A stretch of DNA of 19,565 nt, from positions 1-19,565 of the forward strand of contig CAKUFW010000033.1 of NCBI GenBank assembly GCA_934650975.1, in the 5' to 3' direction. The notes below the pieces were generated by a model. That model worked only from the letters and a program-made list of their open reading frames with translations, was not told where the DNA came from and searched no databases. The stretch is from an uncultured Collinsella sp. (GTDB lineage: Bacteria > Actinomycetota > Coriobacteriia > Coriobacteriales > Coriobacteriaceae). The translations under genes and the position numbers were made by a program. Shown here piece after piece: positions 3,249-11,147 of the stretch. Position 1 is the first letter of the stretch; every line of letters begins with the position of its first letter.

Positions 3249-5906
3249 ATGAGTGCTGACTACCCGTCAATGACTACGGCCGAGATCCGCTCTAAGTTCC
3301 TCAACTTCTTTGAGGAGCGCGGTCTTAAGCTCTATCCTTCTTCGTCCCTCGTTCCCGACGATCCTTCGCTGCTGCTTGCCAACGCCGGCATGAACCAGTT
3401 TAAGGAGTACTACCAGGGCAAGAAGACCATGAAGGAGATCGGCGCGATCTCCTGCCAGAAGTGCGTCCGCACCAACGATATCGATTGCATCGGCGAGGAT
3501 GGCCGTCACCTGTCCTTCTTCGAGATGCTCGGCGATTTCTCCTTTGGTGGCGTCTCCAAGCAGCAGGCATGCGCCTGGGCTTTTGAGCTCATTACCAAGG
3601 AGTTCAAGCTGCCGCTCGACCGCCTGTACTTCACCGTCTTTACCGAGGACGATGAGACCCACGACGTGTGGCGTTCCCTGGGCGTTGCCGAGGACCACAT
3701 CTCCCGTCTGGGCGAGGACGACAACTTCTGGGCTGCTGGCCCCACCGGCCCCTGCGGTCCGTGCTCCGAGATTTACTTTGATATGGGCGAGGAGGTCGGC
3801 TGCGGCAAGCCCGACTGCAAGCCCGGTTGCGACTGCGACCGCTTCCTGGAGTTCTGGAACCTCGTGTTTACCCAGTACGACCGCCAGGAGGACGGCTCCA
3901 TGCCGGAGCTGCCGCACCGCAACCTCGATACGGGCATGGGCCTGGAGCGCATGGCCGCTATCATGCAGCACAAGACCGCCAACTACGATGGCGATCTGAT
4001 GCAGCACCTCATTAAACTGGGCGAGGAGATCAGCGGCAAGACCTATGTCGCCGACGACTACTCCGGTGCCAGCCGCTCTCTGCGCATTATCGCCGACCAC
4101 TCCCGTGCCGTCGACTTCATGATTTCCGACGGCATCCTGCCCGGCAACGAGGGTCGCGAGTACGTCCTGCGCCGCCTGCTCCGCCGCGCCGTGTTCCACG
4201 GCCGCCTGCTGGGCATCGAGGGCGCCTTCCTGACCAAGTTCATCGATGAGGTCAACGCTCAGATGGGCGAGGCCTATCCCGAGCTGCTCAAGAACGTCGC
4301 GCTCGTCAAGGGCATCGTCGCCTCCGAGGAGGAGCGCTTCTCCACGACGCTCGACAACGGCCGCGTCTACCTGGACGAGGCCCTGGCAGCGCTTTCCGAG
4401 GGCGCTGTTCTTCCGGGCGATGTTGCCTTTAAGCTGCACGACACCTTTGGCTTCCCCATCGACCTGACCGTCGAGATCGCCGGCACCGCTGGTCACGACG
4501 TCGACATGGAAGGCTTTACCGCCTGCATGGAGGACCAGAAAGCCCGCGCCCGCGCCAACGCCAAGGGCGATGCCTGGGGCAGCTTCAACGACGTGTGGGT
4601 CGAGCTTTCCGATAAGGTCGCCGTGACCGAGTTCGACGGCTATGACAACGATGTGATCGAGGGCGCCAAGGTTGTCGCCATCGTGCGCAACGGCGAGTCC
4701 GTCGAGTCCGCTGCCGCTGGCGAGGATGTCGAGGTCGTGCTTGACCGCACTCCGTTCTACGCCGAGATGGGTGGCCAGCAGGGCGACGCCGGCGAGCTTT
4801 CTGCCGAGGGCGTCGTGCTGACCGTTGCCGACACCAAGAATCACAACGGCCTGTATGCCCACGTCGCACACGTTGCCGAGGGCACGCTGACCGTCGGTGC
4901 TGCCGTGACCGCCGCGCTCGACGCCGAGCGCCGTGGCTTCCTGCGCCGCAACCACACCGCTACGCACCTGCTCGACGCCGCCCTTAAGCAGGTCCTGGGC
5001 GAGCATGTCTCCCAGGCCGGCTCGCTGGTGACGCCCGAGCACCTGCGCTTTGACTTCACGCACTTCGAGGCCCTGTCTTCCGAGCAGCTCAAGGCTGTCG
5101 AGGACCTGGTCAACCAACAGATCTTCGCTTCCAAGCCGGTCGTGACCCGCGTCATGGGCATCGACGAGGCCAAGGCTGCCGGCGCTGTCGCCCTCTTTGG
5201 CGAGAAGTACGGCGACGTCGTGCGCGTCGTCTCCGTGGGCGCCGAGGACCAGCCGTTCTCCCGCGAGCTCTGCGGTGGTACGCACGCCGCCAACACCGCC
5301 GAGATCGGCCTGTTCAAGATCATTTCCGAGTCCTCCACGGGCTCGAACGTCCGCCGTATCGAGGCCGTGACCTCCAAGGGCGCGCTCGACTACATGGCCG
5401 ACCGCCTGGCGCTCGTCGACGCCGCCGCCGCTGCGCTCAAGTGCCGCGTCGACGAGGTCCCGGCGCGCGTGGAGAACCTGCAGGCCGAGCTGCGTGAGAC
5501 TTCCAACAAGCTCAAGAAGGCGCTCACCGGTGGCTCCTCCGATGCCATCTCCGGCGCCATCGACGCCGCTGTCGAGCTCGACGGCTACAAGCTCGTTGTC
5601 GCCGAGCTTCAGGGTCTCGAGGCCGCTGACCTGCGCAACGTGTGGGATACCGTGCACCAGAAGGTCGCCGGCCCCGTCGCCTGCGTCGTTGCCAGCGTGA
5701 CCGAGAAGGGCACCCCGGCCCTGCTCGCCGCCGGTTCCGATGACGCCGTCAAGGCCGGTTTCCACGCCGGTAACGTGATCAAGCAGATCGCGGGCCTGGT
5801 CGACGGTCGCGGTGGCGGTCGTCCCAACATGGCCCAGGCCGGTGGCAAGAACGCCGCCGGTATCGCTGATGCCCTCGCGGCCGCCAAGACCGCGCTCGGC
5901 GCCTAA
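3249..5906 (+). CDS. alaS: Alanine-tRNA ligase
   Basis: This cytoplasmic enzyme charges tRNA-Ala with alanine. The 885-residue length is normal. The N-terminal class II catalytic core includes FLNFFEERGLKLYPSSSLVP, the Cys-bearing insertion at C185, C190, C194 and C196, and LDTGMGLERM. The editing domain carries both conserved zinc motifs, HTATH (H569, H573) and CGGTH (C675, H679), so hydrolysis of Ser- and Gly-tRNA-Ala should be intact. The Gly-rich C-terminal part (GRGGGRPNMAQAGGK) matches the C-Ala domain. The ATG at 3249 has GAGGAG 9 nt upstream. A more upstream in-frame ATG at 3159 lies inside the terminator and is not used. It heads an operon, with ruvX 17 nt downstream. Codon use is strongly biased, as in a highly expressed gene. 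Confidence 0.98.
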   Translation: MSADYPSMTTAEIRSKFLNFFEERGLKLYPSSSLVPDDPSLLLANAGMNQFKEYYQGKKTMKEIGAISCQKCVRTNDIDCIGEDGRHLSFFEMLGDFSFGGVSKQQACAWAFELITKEFKLPLDRLYFTVFTEDDETHDVWRSLGVAEDHISRLGEDDNFWAAGPTGPCGPCSEIYFDMGEEVGCGKPDCKPGCDCDRFLEFWNLVFTQYDRQEDGSMPELPHRNLDTGMGLERMAAIMQHKTANYDGDLMQHLIKLGEEISGKTYVADDYSGASRSLRIIADHSRAVDFMISDGILPGNEGREYVLRRLLRRAVFHGRLLGIEGAFLTKFIDEVNAQMGEAYPELLKNVALVKGIVASEEERFSTTLDNGRVYLDEALAALSEGAVLPGDVAFKLHDTFGFPIDLTVEIAGTAGHDVDMEGFTACMEDQKARARANAKGDAWGSFNDVWVELSDKVAVTEFDGYDNDVIEGAKVVAIVRNGESVESAAAGEDVEVVLDRTPFYAEMGGQQGDAGELSAEGVVLTVADTKNHNGLYAHVAHVAEGTLTVGAAVTAALDAERRGFLRRNHTATHLLDAALKQVLGEHVSQAGSLVTPEHLRFDFTHFEALSSEQLKAVEDLVNQQIFASKPVVTRVMGIDEAKAAGAVALFGEKYGDVVRVVSVGAEDQPFSRELCGGTHAANTAEIGLFKIISESSTGSNVRRIEAVTSKGALDYMADRLALVDAAAAALKCRVDEVPARVENLQAELRETSNKLKKALTGGSSDAISGAIDAAVELDGYKLVVAELQGLEAADLRNVWDTVHQKVAGPVACVVASVTEKGTPALLAAGSDDAVKAGFHAGNVIKQIAGLVDGRGGGRPNMAQAGGKNAAGIADALAAAKTALGA

Positions 5907-5923: not shown

Positions 5924-6352
5924 GTGGTCGCGCTCGCACTGGACATAGGGGAGACCAGGATCGGCATTGCCGTCTCGAGCCGTGATGGCAAGATGGCGAT
6001 GCCCGTCAAGGTGCTCCCGGCTGCCGAGGTCACTGGTATGGCTAAGACGTTTCGCTACCTGGTCGAGGACTATGAGCCCGACATTCTGGTAAGCGGACGT
6101 CCCCTGACCATGGCCGGTGAGCCTGGTCCCCAGGCCGAGCGCGTCGCCGCTGTGGCCCAAAAGATTGCCGACGAGCTCGATCTTCCGCTGGAGTTTGAGG
6201 ACGAGCGTCTGTCCTCGCAAGAGGCCAAGCGTATTCTGCGCGAGCAGGGGCTCAACGAAAAGCAGATGAGGGGCAAAATTGACATGATCGCCGCCAGCCT
6301 GTTTTTGCAGACGTGGCTCGATCGCAAGAACGAGGAGGTCCAGCATGTCTAG
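5924..6352 (+). CDS. ruvX: RuvX/YqgF-family Holliday junction resolvase-like nuclease
   Basis: The 142-residue product has the RNase H-like fold signature of YqgF: ALDIGETRIGIAV at the start (acidic residue D7), SGRPLTMAGEPG in the middle, DERLSS (E94) and KIDMIAASLFLQTWLD (D120). These three acidic positions correspond to the family's proposed metal-binding site. Family members are implicated in processing of the 16S rRNA 5' end and were first proposed as Holliday junction resolvases; the two roles are not separable from sequence. The start is GTG 5924, the first start after an in-frame stop at 5912. No good ribosome-binding site is seen, so coupling to alaS is likely. Its last 8 nt overlap the mltG start, a common alaS-ruvX-mltG arrangement. 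Confidence 0.93.
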   Translation: MVALALDIGETRIGIAVSSRDGKMAMPVKVLPAAEVTGMAKTFRYLVEDYEPDILVSGRPLTMAGEPGPQAERVAAVAQKIADELDLPLEFEDERLSSQEAKRILREQGLNEKQMRGKIDMIAASLFLQTWLDRKNEEVQHV

Positions 6353-7736
6353 CGCTTCCGATCCGCGCCAGCCGAATCGCCAGGGTCAGCCCGCACCGCG
6401 CCCCGCACAGCCCGGTCAGCGTCCGGTGCAGCCGACGCAACGTGCGGCTCAGCCTGTTGCGCGTCCGGCGCAGTCCTCCTCGCGTGCCGCTCAGCCAACT
6501 CTGCGTGCTACTCAACAGCCTGCCGCTCGTCCCGCGCAGCCCGCTGGCGGCGCTCGCTTTAAGCAGCAGGCTCCTACGCAGCGCGCGCAGGCCCCTCAGT
6601 CGCACACGCACGCACATCGTTCTCACGGCACGCATGGTGTAGCTCCGGCCTCGCGCTCGAGCTATAACACGCATGCTCGCCGTGGCGCCCAAAAGAAGAG
6701 CTCTCCGGTGCCCATGATTATCGGCGCCGTGGCAGCCGTGCTCGCGCTTGCTGTGATTGCCTTCTTTGTCGTGCCAGCCGTCAAGGGTTTCCTTGCCGGT
6801 GAGGATACGAAGGTTGCTGCCGGCCAGCAGGTCACGATCACGATTCCCGAGGGCGCATCGGGCGATACCATCGCCTCGATCCTTTCCGAGAACCATATCG
6901 TCGAGAATCCCAAGGATTATTACGCGGCGGTCAAAAAGCTCAACGCCGACATGTCGCTCAAGCCTGGCACCTACTCGTTTACCACGCTCATGGACGCGAC
7001 CAAGGTCGTCCAGCAGCTCATGGAAGGCCCCAATGCGGGCTCCGATGCCCTGACGATTCCTGAGGGCCTGACGGTCGACCAGGTTGCCGATCGCGTGGCC
7101 GCGGCATACGACAGTATCTCCAAGGAGGACTTCCTCAATCAGGCAAAGGCCTCCAACTATGTGAAGGACTATGGCTTCCTCGAAGGCGCTGCAAATGATT
7201 CGCTTGAGGGCTTCCTGTTTCCCAAGACGTATTCGCTTGGCAAGGACCCGTCTGCCGATGACGTGATTCGTGCCATGCTCGACCAGTTCAACACCGAGTA
7301 CAAGTCGCTCGACTTTGCCAGCTGCGAGGCCAAGATCAAGGAGCGCTACGGTGTGGAGATGTCCGATTACGACATCGTTAACCTTGCCTCCATTGTCGAG
7401 CGTGAGGGCCTCAACGCCGATCAACGCGCACACGTTGCCTCGGTTTTCTATAACCGCCTGGCGGGTAAGCTCGATGGCCTGCGTTATCTCAACAGCGATG
7501 CGACCATGATGTATGTCACCGGTGGCGAGGTTACCGCCGATGACCTGCAAAGCGATAGCCCGTATAACACATACAAGCACGAGGGCCTGCCGCCCACGCC
7601 CATCTGCTCTCCGTCGCTCGAGGCGCTCAAGGCCACGCTTGAGCCGACCGACTCCGATGACCTGTATTTCTACATTACGCAGGACGAGGAGTATTTCTCG
7701 AAGACTTACGAAGAGCATCAACAGTCTTGGAATTGA
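6345..7736 (+). CDS. mltG: Endolytic murein transglycosylase MltG with long N-terminal cytoplasmic tail
   Basis: The 463-residue protein cuts nascent glycan strands at the outer face of the membrane and helps set glycan length. Residues 1-120 are low complexity, rich in Pro, Gln, Arg and Ala with repeated RPAQP-like units, followed by a His-rich patch. One membrane helix lies at about 124-146, giving an inside-N topology. The extracellular YceG domain shows IPEGASGDTIASIL, PKTYSLGKDP, the catalytic motif LASIVEREG with Glu352 equivalent to E. coli Glu218, and YNTYKHEGLPPTPICSPS near the end. The ATG 6345 start overlaps the ruvX stop. The enzyme domain looks complete. The tail is longer than in most Firmicutes homologues. 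Confidence 0.95.
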   Translation: MSSASDPRQPNRQGQPAPRPAQPGQRPVQPTQRAAQPVARPAQSSSRAAQPTLRATQQPAARPAQPAGGARFKQQAPTQRAQAPQSHTHAHRSHGTHGVAPASRSSYNTHARRGAQKKSSPVPMIIGAVAAVLALAVIAFFVVPAVKGFLAGEDTKVAAGQQVTITIPEGASGDTIASILSENHIVENPKDYYAAVKKLNADMSLKPGTYSFTTLMDATKVVQQLMEGPNAGSDALTIPEGLTVDQVADRVAAAYDSISKEDFLNQAKASNYVKDYGFLEGAANDSLEGFLFPKTYSLGKDPSADDVIRAMLDQFNTEYKSLDFASCEAKIKERYGVEMSDYDIVNLASIVEREGLNADQRAHVASVFYNRLAGKLDGLRYLNSDATMMYVTGGEVTADDLQSDSPYNTYKHEGLPPTPICSPSLEALKATLEPTDSDDLYFYITQDEEYFSKTYEEHQQSWN

Positions 7737-7738
7737 TC

Positions 7739-8236
7739 ATGAGGATTTTTAGCCCCAAACGATATGTTGCCTCGGTCGATCGCATCGACCTCGATACCCT
7801 GTGGGCCGACGGCAAGCGAGCCATTCTGCTCGACCGCGACAACACCCTGGTTCCGCGTGATACCGAGCAGGTTCCCGCCGCGGTTTCCGCTTGGCTCCAA
7901 GCCGCCCATGCCAAGGGCTTTAAACTGTGTATGGTGTCCAATAACTGGCATCGCGACCAGGTCATGGCGTCTGCCCGCGAGCTGGGGCTCGAGGCCATCA
8001 GCCACGCCATGAAGCCGGCGCCGTTTGCCCTCAAGGCAGGACTTAAGCGCCTGGGTGCCACGGCCGACGAGGCTGTGCTGATCGGCGACCAGCTCTACAC
8101 GGACGTGTGGAGCGGCAATTTTGCCGGCGTTGACACTATCCTGGTAAAGCCGCAGGCAACTCAGGACCTGTGGTATACGCAGATCTTCCGCATCTTTGAG
8201 CGCCGGGCCCTGCGCGACCTTCCCTGCGAGGAATAG
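7739..8236 (+). CDS. yqeG: YqeG-family HAD phosphatase
   Basis: The 165-residue protein belongs to the HAD superfamily subfamily IIIA and resembles B. subtilis YqeG. Motif I is LLDRDNTLVPRD with D32 as nucleophile and D34 as general acid. Motif II is the Ser of MVSNNW, the motif III Lys is in the region FALKAGLKRL, and motif IV is IGDQLYTDVW (D117, D122). The reaction should be hydrolysis of a small phosphorylated compound, but the substrate is unknown. The ATG at 7739 lies 2 nt after the mltG stop and matches the expected N terminus (RIFSPKRYVAS). A TTG at 7727 in the same frame is a less likely alternative. In Firmicutes this family sits with aroE. Here it lies directly before aroK, which keeps a link with shikimate genes. 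Confidence 0.88.
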   Translation: MRIFSPKRYVASVDRIDLDTLWADGKRAILLDRDNTLVPRDTEQVPAAVSAWLQAAHAKGFKLCMVSNNWHRDQVMASARELGLEAISHAMKPAPFALKAGLKRLGATADEAVLIGDQLYTDVWSGNFAGVDTILVKPQATQDLWYTQIFRIFERRALRDLPCEE

Positions 8237-8244
8237 GTCTCGCC

Positions 8245-8778
8245 ATGTCCCAGCACACCAAACACGGCTGCGACCATATTTTCTTTATCGGCTTTTTGGG
8301 CGCGGGCAAGTCGACACTTGCACGCAACGTCGGCACCATGTTCAAGCGCCGATTCATCGATACCGACCGCCTGGTCGTGCGCCGGTGCGGCAAGTCGGTG
8401 ACCGAGATTTTCGAGACCGAGGGCGAGGATCGTTTCCGTGAGCTCGAGACCTCGGCGCTCCGTTCGCTCCAAAGCGAGCGCAGCCTGCTGGTTTCGTGTG
8501 GGGGCGGCATCGTCGAGACGCCGGTGAACATTGAGTTGATGCACGAGATGGGCACGTGCGTGTACCTCGAAGGAGACTTTGAGGACTCGATGCGCCAGAT
8601 TCGCCGCTCCGATACCCGGCCCGATTTCCGCTCGCCCGAGCATGCGGCGCGCTTGTTTGAGCACCGCCGCCCGCTGTATCGCCAAGCCGCCGATATAACC
8701 CTTGATATTCGCAACAAGTCCTTTGAGGACGTTTCCTACGTTTGTGCCGAGATGCTTTTGGAGCGTGGACTGCTATGA
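8245..8778 (+). CDS. aroK: Shikimate kinase
   Basis: This 177-residue P-loop kinase would phosphorylate shikimate at the 3-hydroxyl with ATP, the fifth step of aromatic amino-acid synthesis. Key residues are intact: Walker A GFLGAGKST (16-24), IDTDR with Asp39 and Asp41 for Mg2+ and shikimate, FRELE as the shikimate-binding Arg region, SCGGG (84-88), and the lid Arg in RRPLYRQAA. Length and order match AroK. It starts 8 nt after the YqeG-like gene. Its TGA overlaps the next ATG (ATGA), so it is translationally coupled to the AroB-like protein. Gluconate kinase is a conceivable alternative, but the FR and GGG motifs and the neighbourhood favour AroK. Confidence 0.92.
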   Translation: MSQHTKHGCDHIFFIGFLGAGKSTLARNVGTMFKRRFIDTDRLVVRRCGKSVTEIFETEGEDRFRELETSALRSLQSERSLLVSCGGGIVETPVNIELMHEMGTCVYLEGDFEDSMRQIRRSDTRPDFRSPEHAARLFEHRRPLYRQAADITLDIRNKSFEDVSYVCAEMLLERGLL

Positions 8779-9884
8779 TTCGCCGTCAACTTATCAATTT
8801 CCAAAACCGCAGCGTCGATGTCCGCGTCGGACTAGGCGCGTTCGAGGAACTGTCGCGCATGTTTGCCTCGGCGGTGGGCAAGCCCAAGCGTGCGATGGTG
8901 GTTTGGAACGCCGGAACGTCCGAGCGTTTTGGCGAGGTCGTCGAGCATGCGCTGGTCGACGCCGGTTTTGTCGTGTCGCAGCTCATCCTCGAGGTTTCGC
9001 CTGCCGGCGCTGCGCTTGCCGATGCCGATGCCGTCTTTGGTGCTTTGTCTGCTAACGGCATTACCTGCGACGATCTTGTTGTCGCCGTTGGCGACGCGGC
9101 GACCTGTTCGGTCGTTTGCTGGTGTGCCAACCAGTGGTGCGGTCGCACCGAGTGTGCCCTGCTGCCGACGACATTCGATGCCATGATCACGGTCGCGACG
9201 ACTATGGAGCCGCTCGTCGCTTCTGCGGCCAACGCGCTTCCCGCCATCGCATTCCGTCCCGAACCGGGCTTGGTCGTGTGCGACCTCGATCTTGTGCGCG
9301 AGGCCGACCCCGAGGACCTCAAGCGCGGATATGCCGTGCTCGTGGGCACCATGCTCTCCAGCAGCAAGTCGCGCTGGAATCAGTTTACCGAGACCGTCCC
9401 CGAGATTCTTGCGGGCGAGGAGGTTGCGCTCGTCAATGCCGTGCAGTGGTCCCAGACCGCGCGCAAGGACGTGCTCATGGCTACGAACCCGAGCGCCCGC
9501 CATGCGCTCGACTTTGGCAAGACAGGGGAGCGCACCCTGCGCGCCTGCCTGGGCGAAGCCGCGGCGCGGGTCCCCGCGTACCAGCTGCTGTCCGAGGGCA
9601 TGCGTTTTGAGGTGCGCCTTGCCCATGATGCTTGCGACTTCGATATTGATTACGTCTTTGAGGTCGACGACTGCCTGGAGGACTTTGGTATCGAGGAGCT
9701 CGCCTTTAATCTGGAGCCCGCTGCCTTTATTGCAGAGTTCCGCAAGCAGCAGTTTGCGCGCTCGAACCGCAGCATGTTGCCGCTGCCCGCGGCGCTTGGC
9801 GCCATTCGTCTGACGAACGTCGAGGACGAGGTTCTCGAGCGCCATGCCCAGGCCTACTTGGCCTCTCGTAAAGAACTTCTCTAA
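8775..9884 (+). CDS. 3-dehydroquinate synthase homologue lacking catalytic residues
   Basis: The 369-residue product aligns over its whole length with 3-dehydroquinate synthase (AroB), which turns DAHP into 3-dehydroquinate using NAD and a divalent metal. Framework matches include the N terminus (INFQNRSVDVRVGLGAF), LLPTTFDAM and VVCDLDLVREADPEDLKRGYA. The functional motifs are changed. The NAD loop GGGvvGD reads VGDAATC (105-111). The metal/substrate segment DSSVGGK after PTT is absent. AEVIK reads AVLVG (187-191). The metal-binding GHTFGHAIE reads GKTGERTLR from 248, and the HGEAVAIGM histidine is gone (LLSEGMRF). All three metal ligands appear lost, yet the frame is open and well formed. 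It is either a pseudoenzyme or a protein with a new role. The aroK-aroB order and 4-nt overlap support descent from a normal aroKB operon. Confidence 0.8.
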   Translation: MIRRQLINFQNRSVDVRVGLGAFEELSRMFASAVGKPKRAMVVWNAGTSERFGEVVEHALVDAGFVVSQLILEVSPAGAALADADAVFGALSANGITCDDLVVAVGDAATCSVVCWCANQWCGRTECALLPTTFDAMITVATTMEPLVASAANALPAIAFRPEPGLVVCDLDLVREADPEDLKRGYAVLVGTMLSSSKSRWNQFTETVPEILAGEEVALVNAVQWSQTARKDVLMATNPSARHALDFGKTGERTLRACLGEAAARVPAYQLLSEGMRFEVRLAHDACDFDIDYVFEVDDCLEDFGIEELAFNLEPAAFIAEFRKQQFARSNRSMLPLPAALGAIRLTNVEDEVLERHAQAYLASRKELL

Positions 9885-10016: not shown

Positions 10017-11147
10017 ATGTCTGAGTTTGCTGCCGGTCCTGCCGGTCGTATCGAGCGTGTCCGCGCCCTGATGGTCGAGCGCGGCTACGACGCTATCGTG
10101 GTGCGCGACGAGGCCAACCTTCGTTGGCTTACGGGCGTGAAGGGCGTCTTTGACTACACCTTCGAGTTCCCGCACGCCGCGTTTATTACGGCCGACCAGT
10201 GCCTGTTCCATACCGACTCGCGCTATCTCAACAGCTTTGAGGAGAACACGCCCGCCGGCAGCCCCTGGGTCTACGACATGGACGAGGGCACCATCCCCGG
10301 TTGGGTCGCCGGCAAGATCGCGGCCAACAAGTGCCGCGTCTGTGCTGTCGAGGACGACATGCAGATCAACTTCTACCAGGGTATTCAGCGTGGCCTGGAG
10401 GACCGCTCCGTCGCCTGCATGCTGCCGCTGATGCATGACGACATTCGCAAGATGCGCGCCATCAAGGACGCCGAGGAGATTGAGCTCATGCGCCATGCGC
10501 AGTCGATCACCGATGCCGCCTTCCAGCATATGCTCGGATTTATAAAACCCGGCATGACCGAGAAGCAGGTTCGCAACGAGCTCGAGAACTTTATGTTCGC
10601 CAACGGCGCCGACAGCCTGGCCTTTGGCTCCATCGTGGCGAGCGGCCCCAATACCGCCAACCCGCATGCCGTCCCGAGCGACCGCGTGATCGAGAAGGGC
10701 GACTTCGTTCTCATGGATTATGGCGCGGGCTACTGCGACTATCGCTCCGACATGACCCGTACCGTTGTAATGGGCGAGCCCACGCCCGAGCAGCTCGACC
10801 TGTACGCGCTCGTGCGCCGCACGCACGAGGAGTGCGTCGCCGCCATCCATCCGGGCGTCGAGGGCAACGACATTTTCAAGCTTTCCAAGAAGATCATCGG
10901 CGATGCCGGCTATGGCGACTACTACAACCATGGCCTGGGCCACGGCGTCGGTATCGACATTCACGAGCTGCCCAACTTCAACCGCAGCAAGAATATCATC
11001 GAGGTCGGCTCGGTTGTCACCATGGAGCCCGGCGTCTACCTGCCCGGCGTGGGCGGCGTGCGCCTGGAGGATTACGGTGTCGTCACCGAGAACGGCTACG
11101 AGCCCTTCACCAAGACCCCGCATGACCTTCACGTCATTGACTGCTAG
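10017..11147 (+). CDS. pepP: M24-family Xaa-Pro aminopeptidase
   Basis: The 376-residue metallopeptidase would remove N-terminal residues next to proline in the cytoplasm. It has the two-part layout of the family: a creatinase-like N-terminal domain (about 1-135) and a pita-bread catalytic domain from about 140. All five dinuclear-metal ligands are present: D234 in LMDYGAGYCDY, D245 in YRSDMTRT, H309 in GHGVGIDIHE, E337 in VTMEPGVYLPG and E351 in RLEDYG. The ATG at 10017 is preceded by AAGAAAGGA. The gene lies just before efp, a conserved order in Gram-positive bacteria, but a strong terminator separates the two here. The exact dipeptide preference cannot be read from sequence. Confidence 0.94.
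   Translation: MSEFAAGPAGRIERVRALMVERGYDAIVVRDEANLRWLTGVKGVFDYTFEFPHAAFITADQCLFHTDSRYLNSFEENTPAGSPWVYDMDEGTIPGWVAGKIAANKCRVCAVEDDMQINFYQGIQRGLEDRSVACMLPLMHDDIRKMRAIKDAEEIELMRHAQSITDAAFQHMLGFIKPGMTEKQVRNELENFMFANGADSLAFGSIVASGPNTANPHAVPSDRVIEKGDFVLMDYGAGYCDYRSDMTRTVVMGEPTPEQLDLYALVRRTHEECVAAIHPGVEGNDIFKLSKKIIGDAGYGDYYNHGLGHGVGIDIHELPNFNRSKNIIEVGSVVTMEPGVYLPGVGGVRLEDYGVVTENGYEPFTKTPHDLHVIDC

Follow-up and report, generated by a model that had tools for sequence, protein, structure and literature searches.

A Putative AroB-Fold Pseudoenzyme Is Retained Beside a Shikimate Kinase Paralog in Two Families of Coriobacteriia

The window analyzed here, a stretch of 19,565 nucleotides from an uncultured Collinsella sp. 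(contig CAKUFW010000033.1, forward strand), contains a homolog of the 3-dehydroquinate synthase (DHQS) AroB, designated PSB (pseudo-AroB), which is encoded directly behind a shikimate kinase (AroK) paralog. This homolog has lost the AroB active site, is retained and is coupled to aroK; relatives carry a second AroB, and the pair survives where no chorismate synthase was found. PSB is apparently kept for a job other than the making of aromatic amino acids. Judged from the sequences and the structure model, a pseudoenzyme is the best-supported reading, and a non-catalytic role taken by itself is held with more confidence than the full model proposed below, which we consider probable. PSB may act as a partner of the AroK paralog in a reaction beyond chorismate synthesis, as a sensor in its own right or as a new enzyme.

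PSB would be an AroB-fold pseudoenzyme. Almost all genomes of two families that frequently inhabit the gut and mouth of humans have it, and it offers a natural experiment in the re-use of a biosynthetic enzyme after its displacement. Annotation may count PSB or the adjacent AroK as shikimate genes and so misjudge which species make aromatics; the genome G301, described below, would be such a case. A literature search on dehydroquinate synthase pseudoenzymes found no AroB-fold case, the pseudoenzyme met there being a TrpC-TrpF protein. The search on Coriobacteriia dehydroquinate synthase found nothing, and that on shikimate, Collinsella and aroB returned only a rumen metagenome study.

Loss of the AroB Active Site

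The original prediction had described PSB as an AroB homolog without NAD- and metal-binding residues, and an alignment with canonical AroBs confirmed this description. An alignment of 48 PSBs from Coriobacteriaceae (f1; Collinsella, Enorma) and Atopobiaceae (f3; Olsenella, Thermophilibacter, Parafannyhessea) with 36 canonical AroBs was examined at 16 positions, which we take to be catalytic in the Aspergillus DHQS (A. nidulans numbering). All 16 were invariant in the canonical proteins (36/36). In the window PSB, 15 of them were altered, with V188, K249 and A268 at the Glu/His/His metal-ligand positions, and nine were kept in none of the 48 PSBs. The Glu and the two His were kept in 4, 3 and 0 sequences, respectively; no PSB of the 48 held all three, the best case being two in G067, and these positions were variable among PSBs. 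The NAD loop GGGxxGD was also lost, its third Gly and its Asp being found in 0/34 PSBs, and the Asp in 0/48 of the larger alignment.

The DHQS fold spanned the whole length of PSB, and the structure model gave a confident single fold with no added domain in the 369-residue window protein, the least confident part being residues 151–160 in the old substrate loop. Against the curated NCBIfam AroB model (TIGR01357) the window copy reached 42.3 bits, below the cut-off of 305, and it had no Pfam match. A Candida Aro1 double mutant of the DHQS histidines had no DHQS activity (PMC9074039). PSB is scarcely likely to be a DHQS. Whole-length homology and fold might suggest a working DHQS whose active-site residues have moved, but this is highly improbable when the three ligands never occur together and a canonical AroB was matched in each of the genomes searched for one (see below).

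Several old pocket positions have become fixed to other residues. D119 was replaced by Ser in 47/48 PSBs, K250 by Arg in 44/48 and R130 by Gly in 40/48, while R264 was kept in 44/48 and W121 was invariant in 34/34. Taken together, the 16 old catalytic sites in PSB were not better conserved than random columns (2.12 vs 1.93 bits, P 0.82); despite this mean, four single old catalytic positions were strongly fixed, and S112, R230, R242 and W121 of PSB, which in the alignment fall on or next to positions of the old pocket, were almost invariant. PSB could be a new enzyme with a rebuilt pocket that needs neither metal nor NAD and acts on the compound that the neighboring kinase consumes or makes. 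The replacements, the kept R264 and the invariant W121 would agree with this, as would an Asp specific to the neighboring AroK (see below), such as a changed substrate would give. Nevertheless, we judge a new enzyme to be unlikely, given the random-level joint conservation, the low confidence of the model in the substrate loop and the variability at the metal-ligand positions.

Distribution and Maintenance by Selection

PSB was matched in 201 of the 205 genomes of the two families. In Coriobacteriaceae it was assigned by best E-value in 64/65 genomes (the miss was G288, 72% complete; in G293 it lay in pieces), and in Atopobiaceae in 137/140 (misses G131, masked; G159, 57% complete; and G170), some of the latter matches being partial (G183, G201, G203, G266). 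Not counted as losses were G131 (PSB region N), G287 (most of the aro operon N), G097 (contig stopping before aroE), G293 and L159, a C. vaginalis record (both split, with N at the join in L159), G183 (rearranged locus, probably an assembly effect), G203 and G214 (where PSB lies at the end of a contig) and G288; G156 was not resolved by open reading frame (ORF). Long N stretches were seen in L206 and L234 over the G131 PSB region and most of the G287 aro operon, and at position 3014 of L159 alaS was joined straight to the PSB tail at N, probably by misassembly.

Substitution ratios were calculated by NG86 among 11 closely related genomes, from 54 of the 55 possible pairs, with ORFs beginning at the first in-frame start and including some codons that overlap aroK. 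The median dN/dS was 0.101 for PSB, 0.027 for aroK, 0.067 for yqeG and 0.025 for pepP, compared with 0.062 for canonical aroB (9 relatives). The value for PSB is far from the ~1 of relaxed selection, and the earlier claim that the gene is maintained and not decaying held. PSB shows two marks of a pseudoenzyme, an enzyme fold kept with its catalytic residues lost and maintenance by selection.

That a redundant aroB simply decayed once a second operon had arrived would agree with the redundancy, which is real, and with the faster divergence of PSB than of pepP, the mean distance ratio being 2.67 over 164 Atopobiaceae pairs and the genome means 2.26–3.52 in 16 Coriobacteriaceae genomes. Furthermore, an internal stop was reported in 23 listed PSB matches; 11 of these were examined, and in them the frame was unbroken and the stop was the terminal one. 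The dN/dS, the near-universal distribution, the confident fold and the retention of PSB where chorismate synthase was not detected make decay scarcely credible. A plain pseudogene is ruled out by dN/dS, distribution and fold.

A Second AroB and the Origin of the Locus

DAHP synthase, TyrA, canonical AroB, AroA, AroC, PheA, an AroE::AroK fusion and AroQ are encoded by a separate operon of G001, the nearest genome; gene names in aro operons other than Pfam matches are presumed. A strong canonical AroB match and chorismate synthase were present in 68/68 sampled genomes of the order; chorismate synthase was searched for in these and in 24 odd-looking genomes plus a few controls, not in all 205. 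For relatives, the search for a second canonical aroB suggested earlier thus succeeded, PSB is ruled out as the only AroB, and the proposal that the pathway must start differently was not supported.

Outgroup families (f2, f4, f5, f8, f10) carried aroK-aroB, with variable aroC, aroE and aroQ, upstream of pepP and efp and mostly behind alaS-ruvX-mltG-yqeG, giving a class-wide order alaS-ruvX-mltG-yqeG-(aroE)-(aroC)-aroK-aroB-(aroQ)-pepP-efp. In Coriobacteriaceae and Atopobiaceae, aroK and PSB alone are left in that slot. Arg277-Phe278 was common to PSB and 18/18 AroBs taken to belong to this ancestral locus (11 annotated in place, 6 assigned through adjacent aroC and shikimate kinase (SKI) matches, and 1, G044, unchecked), and occurred in 0/18 operon AroBs. 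In the tree, the PSBs of both families lay on one side of a single branch (100/100), as did the operon AroBs on theirs; the tree was midpoint-rooted, and the evidence for the descent of PSB lies in synteny and in the residues held in common. PSB is read as the old AroB, freed by the arrival of a second aro operon.

A separate and parallel start of the same process is seen in genus g28 of family f5, which we take to be Eggerthellaceae (G040 and G362; L063, 4935–6050, L212 and L225). In G040 a divergent AroB with its metal ligands replaced lies at the ancestral locus, with Asp/Glu/Pro at the ligand positions and K84 and D119 kept; the tree puts it beside PSB, possibly by long-branch attraction. 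An operon-type AroB is encoded elsewhere in G040. G362 has an 83% identical copy of the divergent AroB and a second AroB match. Additionally, in G073 (L202, L201) the old aroB is gone from the ancestral locus, aroC-aroK stay, and a second aroC sits in an aro cluster of operon type at another place. Other genomes of g45, too, gave at most weak AroB matches of ancestral type.

The Neighboring AroK Paralog and Its Coupling to PSB

The features of the window are collected in Table 1; the names yqeG and pepP are those that we presume for these genes.

Table 1. Features of the window around PSB.
Feature	Position	Strand	Description
yqeG-type HAD phosphatase-like gene	7727..8236	+	Synteny marker on the upstream side of the ancestral aro locus
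AroK paralog	8245..8778	+	PF01202, 133.1 bits; residues of the P-loop and the shikimate site retained, Arg-Pro followed by Asp
aroK/PSB ATGA stop/start overlap	8775..8778	+	Read in the sequence
Pseudo-AroB (PSB)	8775..9884	+	DHQS-fold protein, 369 aa; metal ligands, NAD loop and catalytic lysines gone
pepP-like aminopeptidase	10017..11147	+	Downstream synteny marker

The ATGA coupling described in the window proved general, an [AG]TGA stop/start overlap between aroK and PSB being present in 37/37 loci examined (near copies L003–L011 excluded, here and in the AroK counts below). In one f4 genome (G004) AroK and AroB form a single ORF of 583 residues. The overlap and this fusion fit a pair that once worked, and perhaps still works, together.

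The window AroK scored above the PF01202 cut-off with the shikimate kinase site residues in place. Among the AroKs beside PSB, the equivalents of the P-loop Lys, Asp34, Arg58, GGG and Arg117 were each kept in 37/37 and that of Arg136 in 35/37, in what we take to be the shikimate kinase numbering. The residue after Arg-Pro was Asp in 37/37, and hydrophobic (Leu, Ile, Met, Val, Phe or Tyr) in the 20/20 other AroKs of the class. All 25 Coriobacteriaceae genomes compared had two shikimate kinases, the paralog being the second one beside a complete pathway. The neighbor had been called an intact shikimate kinase, which stands for its binding residues; the lineage-specific Asp, together with survival in a genome without detected chorismate synthase (G301), suggests that the window AroK too may have a changed role.

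Genomes Without a Chorismate Synthase Match

G301, a Coriobacteriaceae genome in a single 2.1-Mb contig (2,115,681 bases, 99% complete), had no chorismate synthase match in a genome-wide search that covered this gene, SKI and AroB but not aroA, aroE, aroQ or aroF. Its one SKI match was the PSB neighbor and its one AroB-like match PSB itself, and the pair was intact, with a TTGA overlap. No N was found in 120 kb around the pair or in 60 probes ~34 kb apart or closer, and a long mask is unlikely. From this genome we infer that the AroK-PSB pair serves outside chorismate synthesis. A chorismate synthase match was likewise missing among the odd-looking genomes from G287 (masked), G157, G158, G159, G170 and G265 (57–94% complete); G158 and G265 keep AroK and PSB, in incomplete assemblies that prove little.

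Proposed Model and Evidence Weighing Against It

The model that we consider probable begins with the class-wide locus, which would have been pared to aroK and aroB in a common ancestor of Coriobacteriaceae and Atopobiaceae, the separate aro operon seen in the gene orders (own aroB, aroE::aroK fusion) carrying the chorismate pathway. The AroB left behind lost its metal, NAD and substrate residues and kept its fold, and would have been retained as a non-catalytic subunit. PSB would most likely form an AroB-type dimer that binds and organizes or regulates the translationally coupled AroK paralog. The arginines still present, R230, R242 and R253, might allow it to sense an anion, and G301 would place the reaction outside chorismate synthesis. 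A narrower proposal, that the pair has been re-used as a non-shikimate polyol kinase set by a metal-free, NAD-free AroB-fold sensor of a phosphorylated or acidic metabolite, kept where the shikimate pathway was lost and with a similar separate step in g28, is tentative and rather doubtful.

Several observations weigh against the main model. An AroK ortholog was found in 124/140 Atopobiaceae genomes (E 1.7e-50 or better), and PSB occurred without a neighboring AroK in 11 genomes of this family (genera g55, g83, g86, g88, g97), the gap being read directly in the DNA of 10 of them. The AroK-less PSBs (10 sequences) were not unusually eroded, with 0–3 changes at 20 columns, compared with a leave-one-out baseline of mean 0.9 and maximum 4 (32 AroK-bearing sequences, 21–23 columns). 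PSB of g55 did not evolve faster either: the pair G093-G099 ranked 45 of 164, and the g55 PSB/pepP ratio means were 2.43 and 2.09 vs 2.67 overall. Since PSB is kept in these genera with no unusual erosion, AroK binding is not its only role, or not a role at all. In addition, G301 sits on a long branch: the mean distances of PSB (1.03), AroK (0.40) and pepP (0.46) from this genome were all the highest of the 16 Coriobacteriaceae genomes compared (near copies and L024 left out); its ratios to pepP were the lowest (PSB 2.26, AroK 0.88), so that PSB and AroK show no extra relaxation there. Masked stretches shorter than ~34 kb may remain in G301. G170 (Atopobiaceae, 1.0 Mb, 94% complete) lacked matches to chorismate synthase and SKI and gave no clear PSB, and the role of PSB is thus not universal. 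Finally, a new ligand or chemistry could also account for the near-invariant S112, R230, R242 and W121.

An obligate AroK partner is weakened by these five genera, with no extra erosion and, in g55, no change of rate; a partner or regulator of AroK, as suggested earlier, is possible. In g55 (L049, ~4679–5149; L055, ~6350–6830) the ORF at the place of the missing aroK resembles a prepilin peptidase.

Comparison With Known Systems

The QutA activator is related to the DHQS/EPSPS half of AROM; a literature search on QUTA with AROM found nothing. In fungal QutR/QutX-type repressors, C-terminal shikimate-enzyme domains of AROM are re-used in regulation, the domains named in PMC10512348 and PMC12610400 being SK, DHQase and SDH, unlike the DHQS-fold PSB. 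Like QutR, PSB might have become a regulator that does not depend on AroK, sensing a metabolite or partnering another protein. Its persistence without AroK in five genera would agree with this, as would the existence of repressors related to C-terminal AROM domains (PMC10512348); the stop/start overlap at every adjacent AroK examined and the single fold of the window PSB, with no added domain, make it improbable.

The DHQase domain of Candida albicans Aro1 was, like PSB, inactivated by active-site substitutions, with a second enzyme doing the step (PMC9074039). That domain is part of a multi-enzyme and belongs to a different enzyme, whereas PSB has the DHQS fold, stands alone and is fixed in two families of bacteria. 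SKL1, a plant protein related to shikimate kinase, acts outside the shikimate pathway, and the opening of the abstract of PMC12203367 mentions no AroB-fold partner.

The other sugar phosphate cyclases presumably use the same NAD and metal positions as AroB. PDB titles give NAD+ with Zn2+ or Co2+ for 2-deoxy-scyllo-inosose synthase (2gru), ValA (4p53) and desmethyl-4-deoxygadusol synthase (5tpr), and the AroB-equivalent positions of this NAD and divalent-metal site are lost in PSB. With AroB (TIGR01357; 5eks, 3okf, 3qbd, 1dqs) PSB shares its whole-length fold, its place beside aroK and its descent, but has neither the Glu/His/His metal site nor the GGGxxGD loop. Bifunctional AroK-AroB proteins (NCBIfam PRK14021, PRK13951; the G004 ORF) join the same two proteins in one chain, and the AroB half of G004, which is among the 36 canonical AroBs aligned, keeps all 16 catalytic positions, unlike PSB. 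A metagenome protein of 514 residues (P0109) combined similarity to PSB with a PF01416 domain, as a fusion or an artifact.
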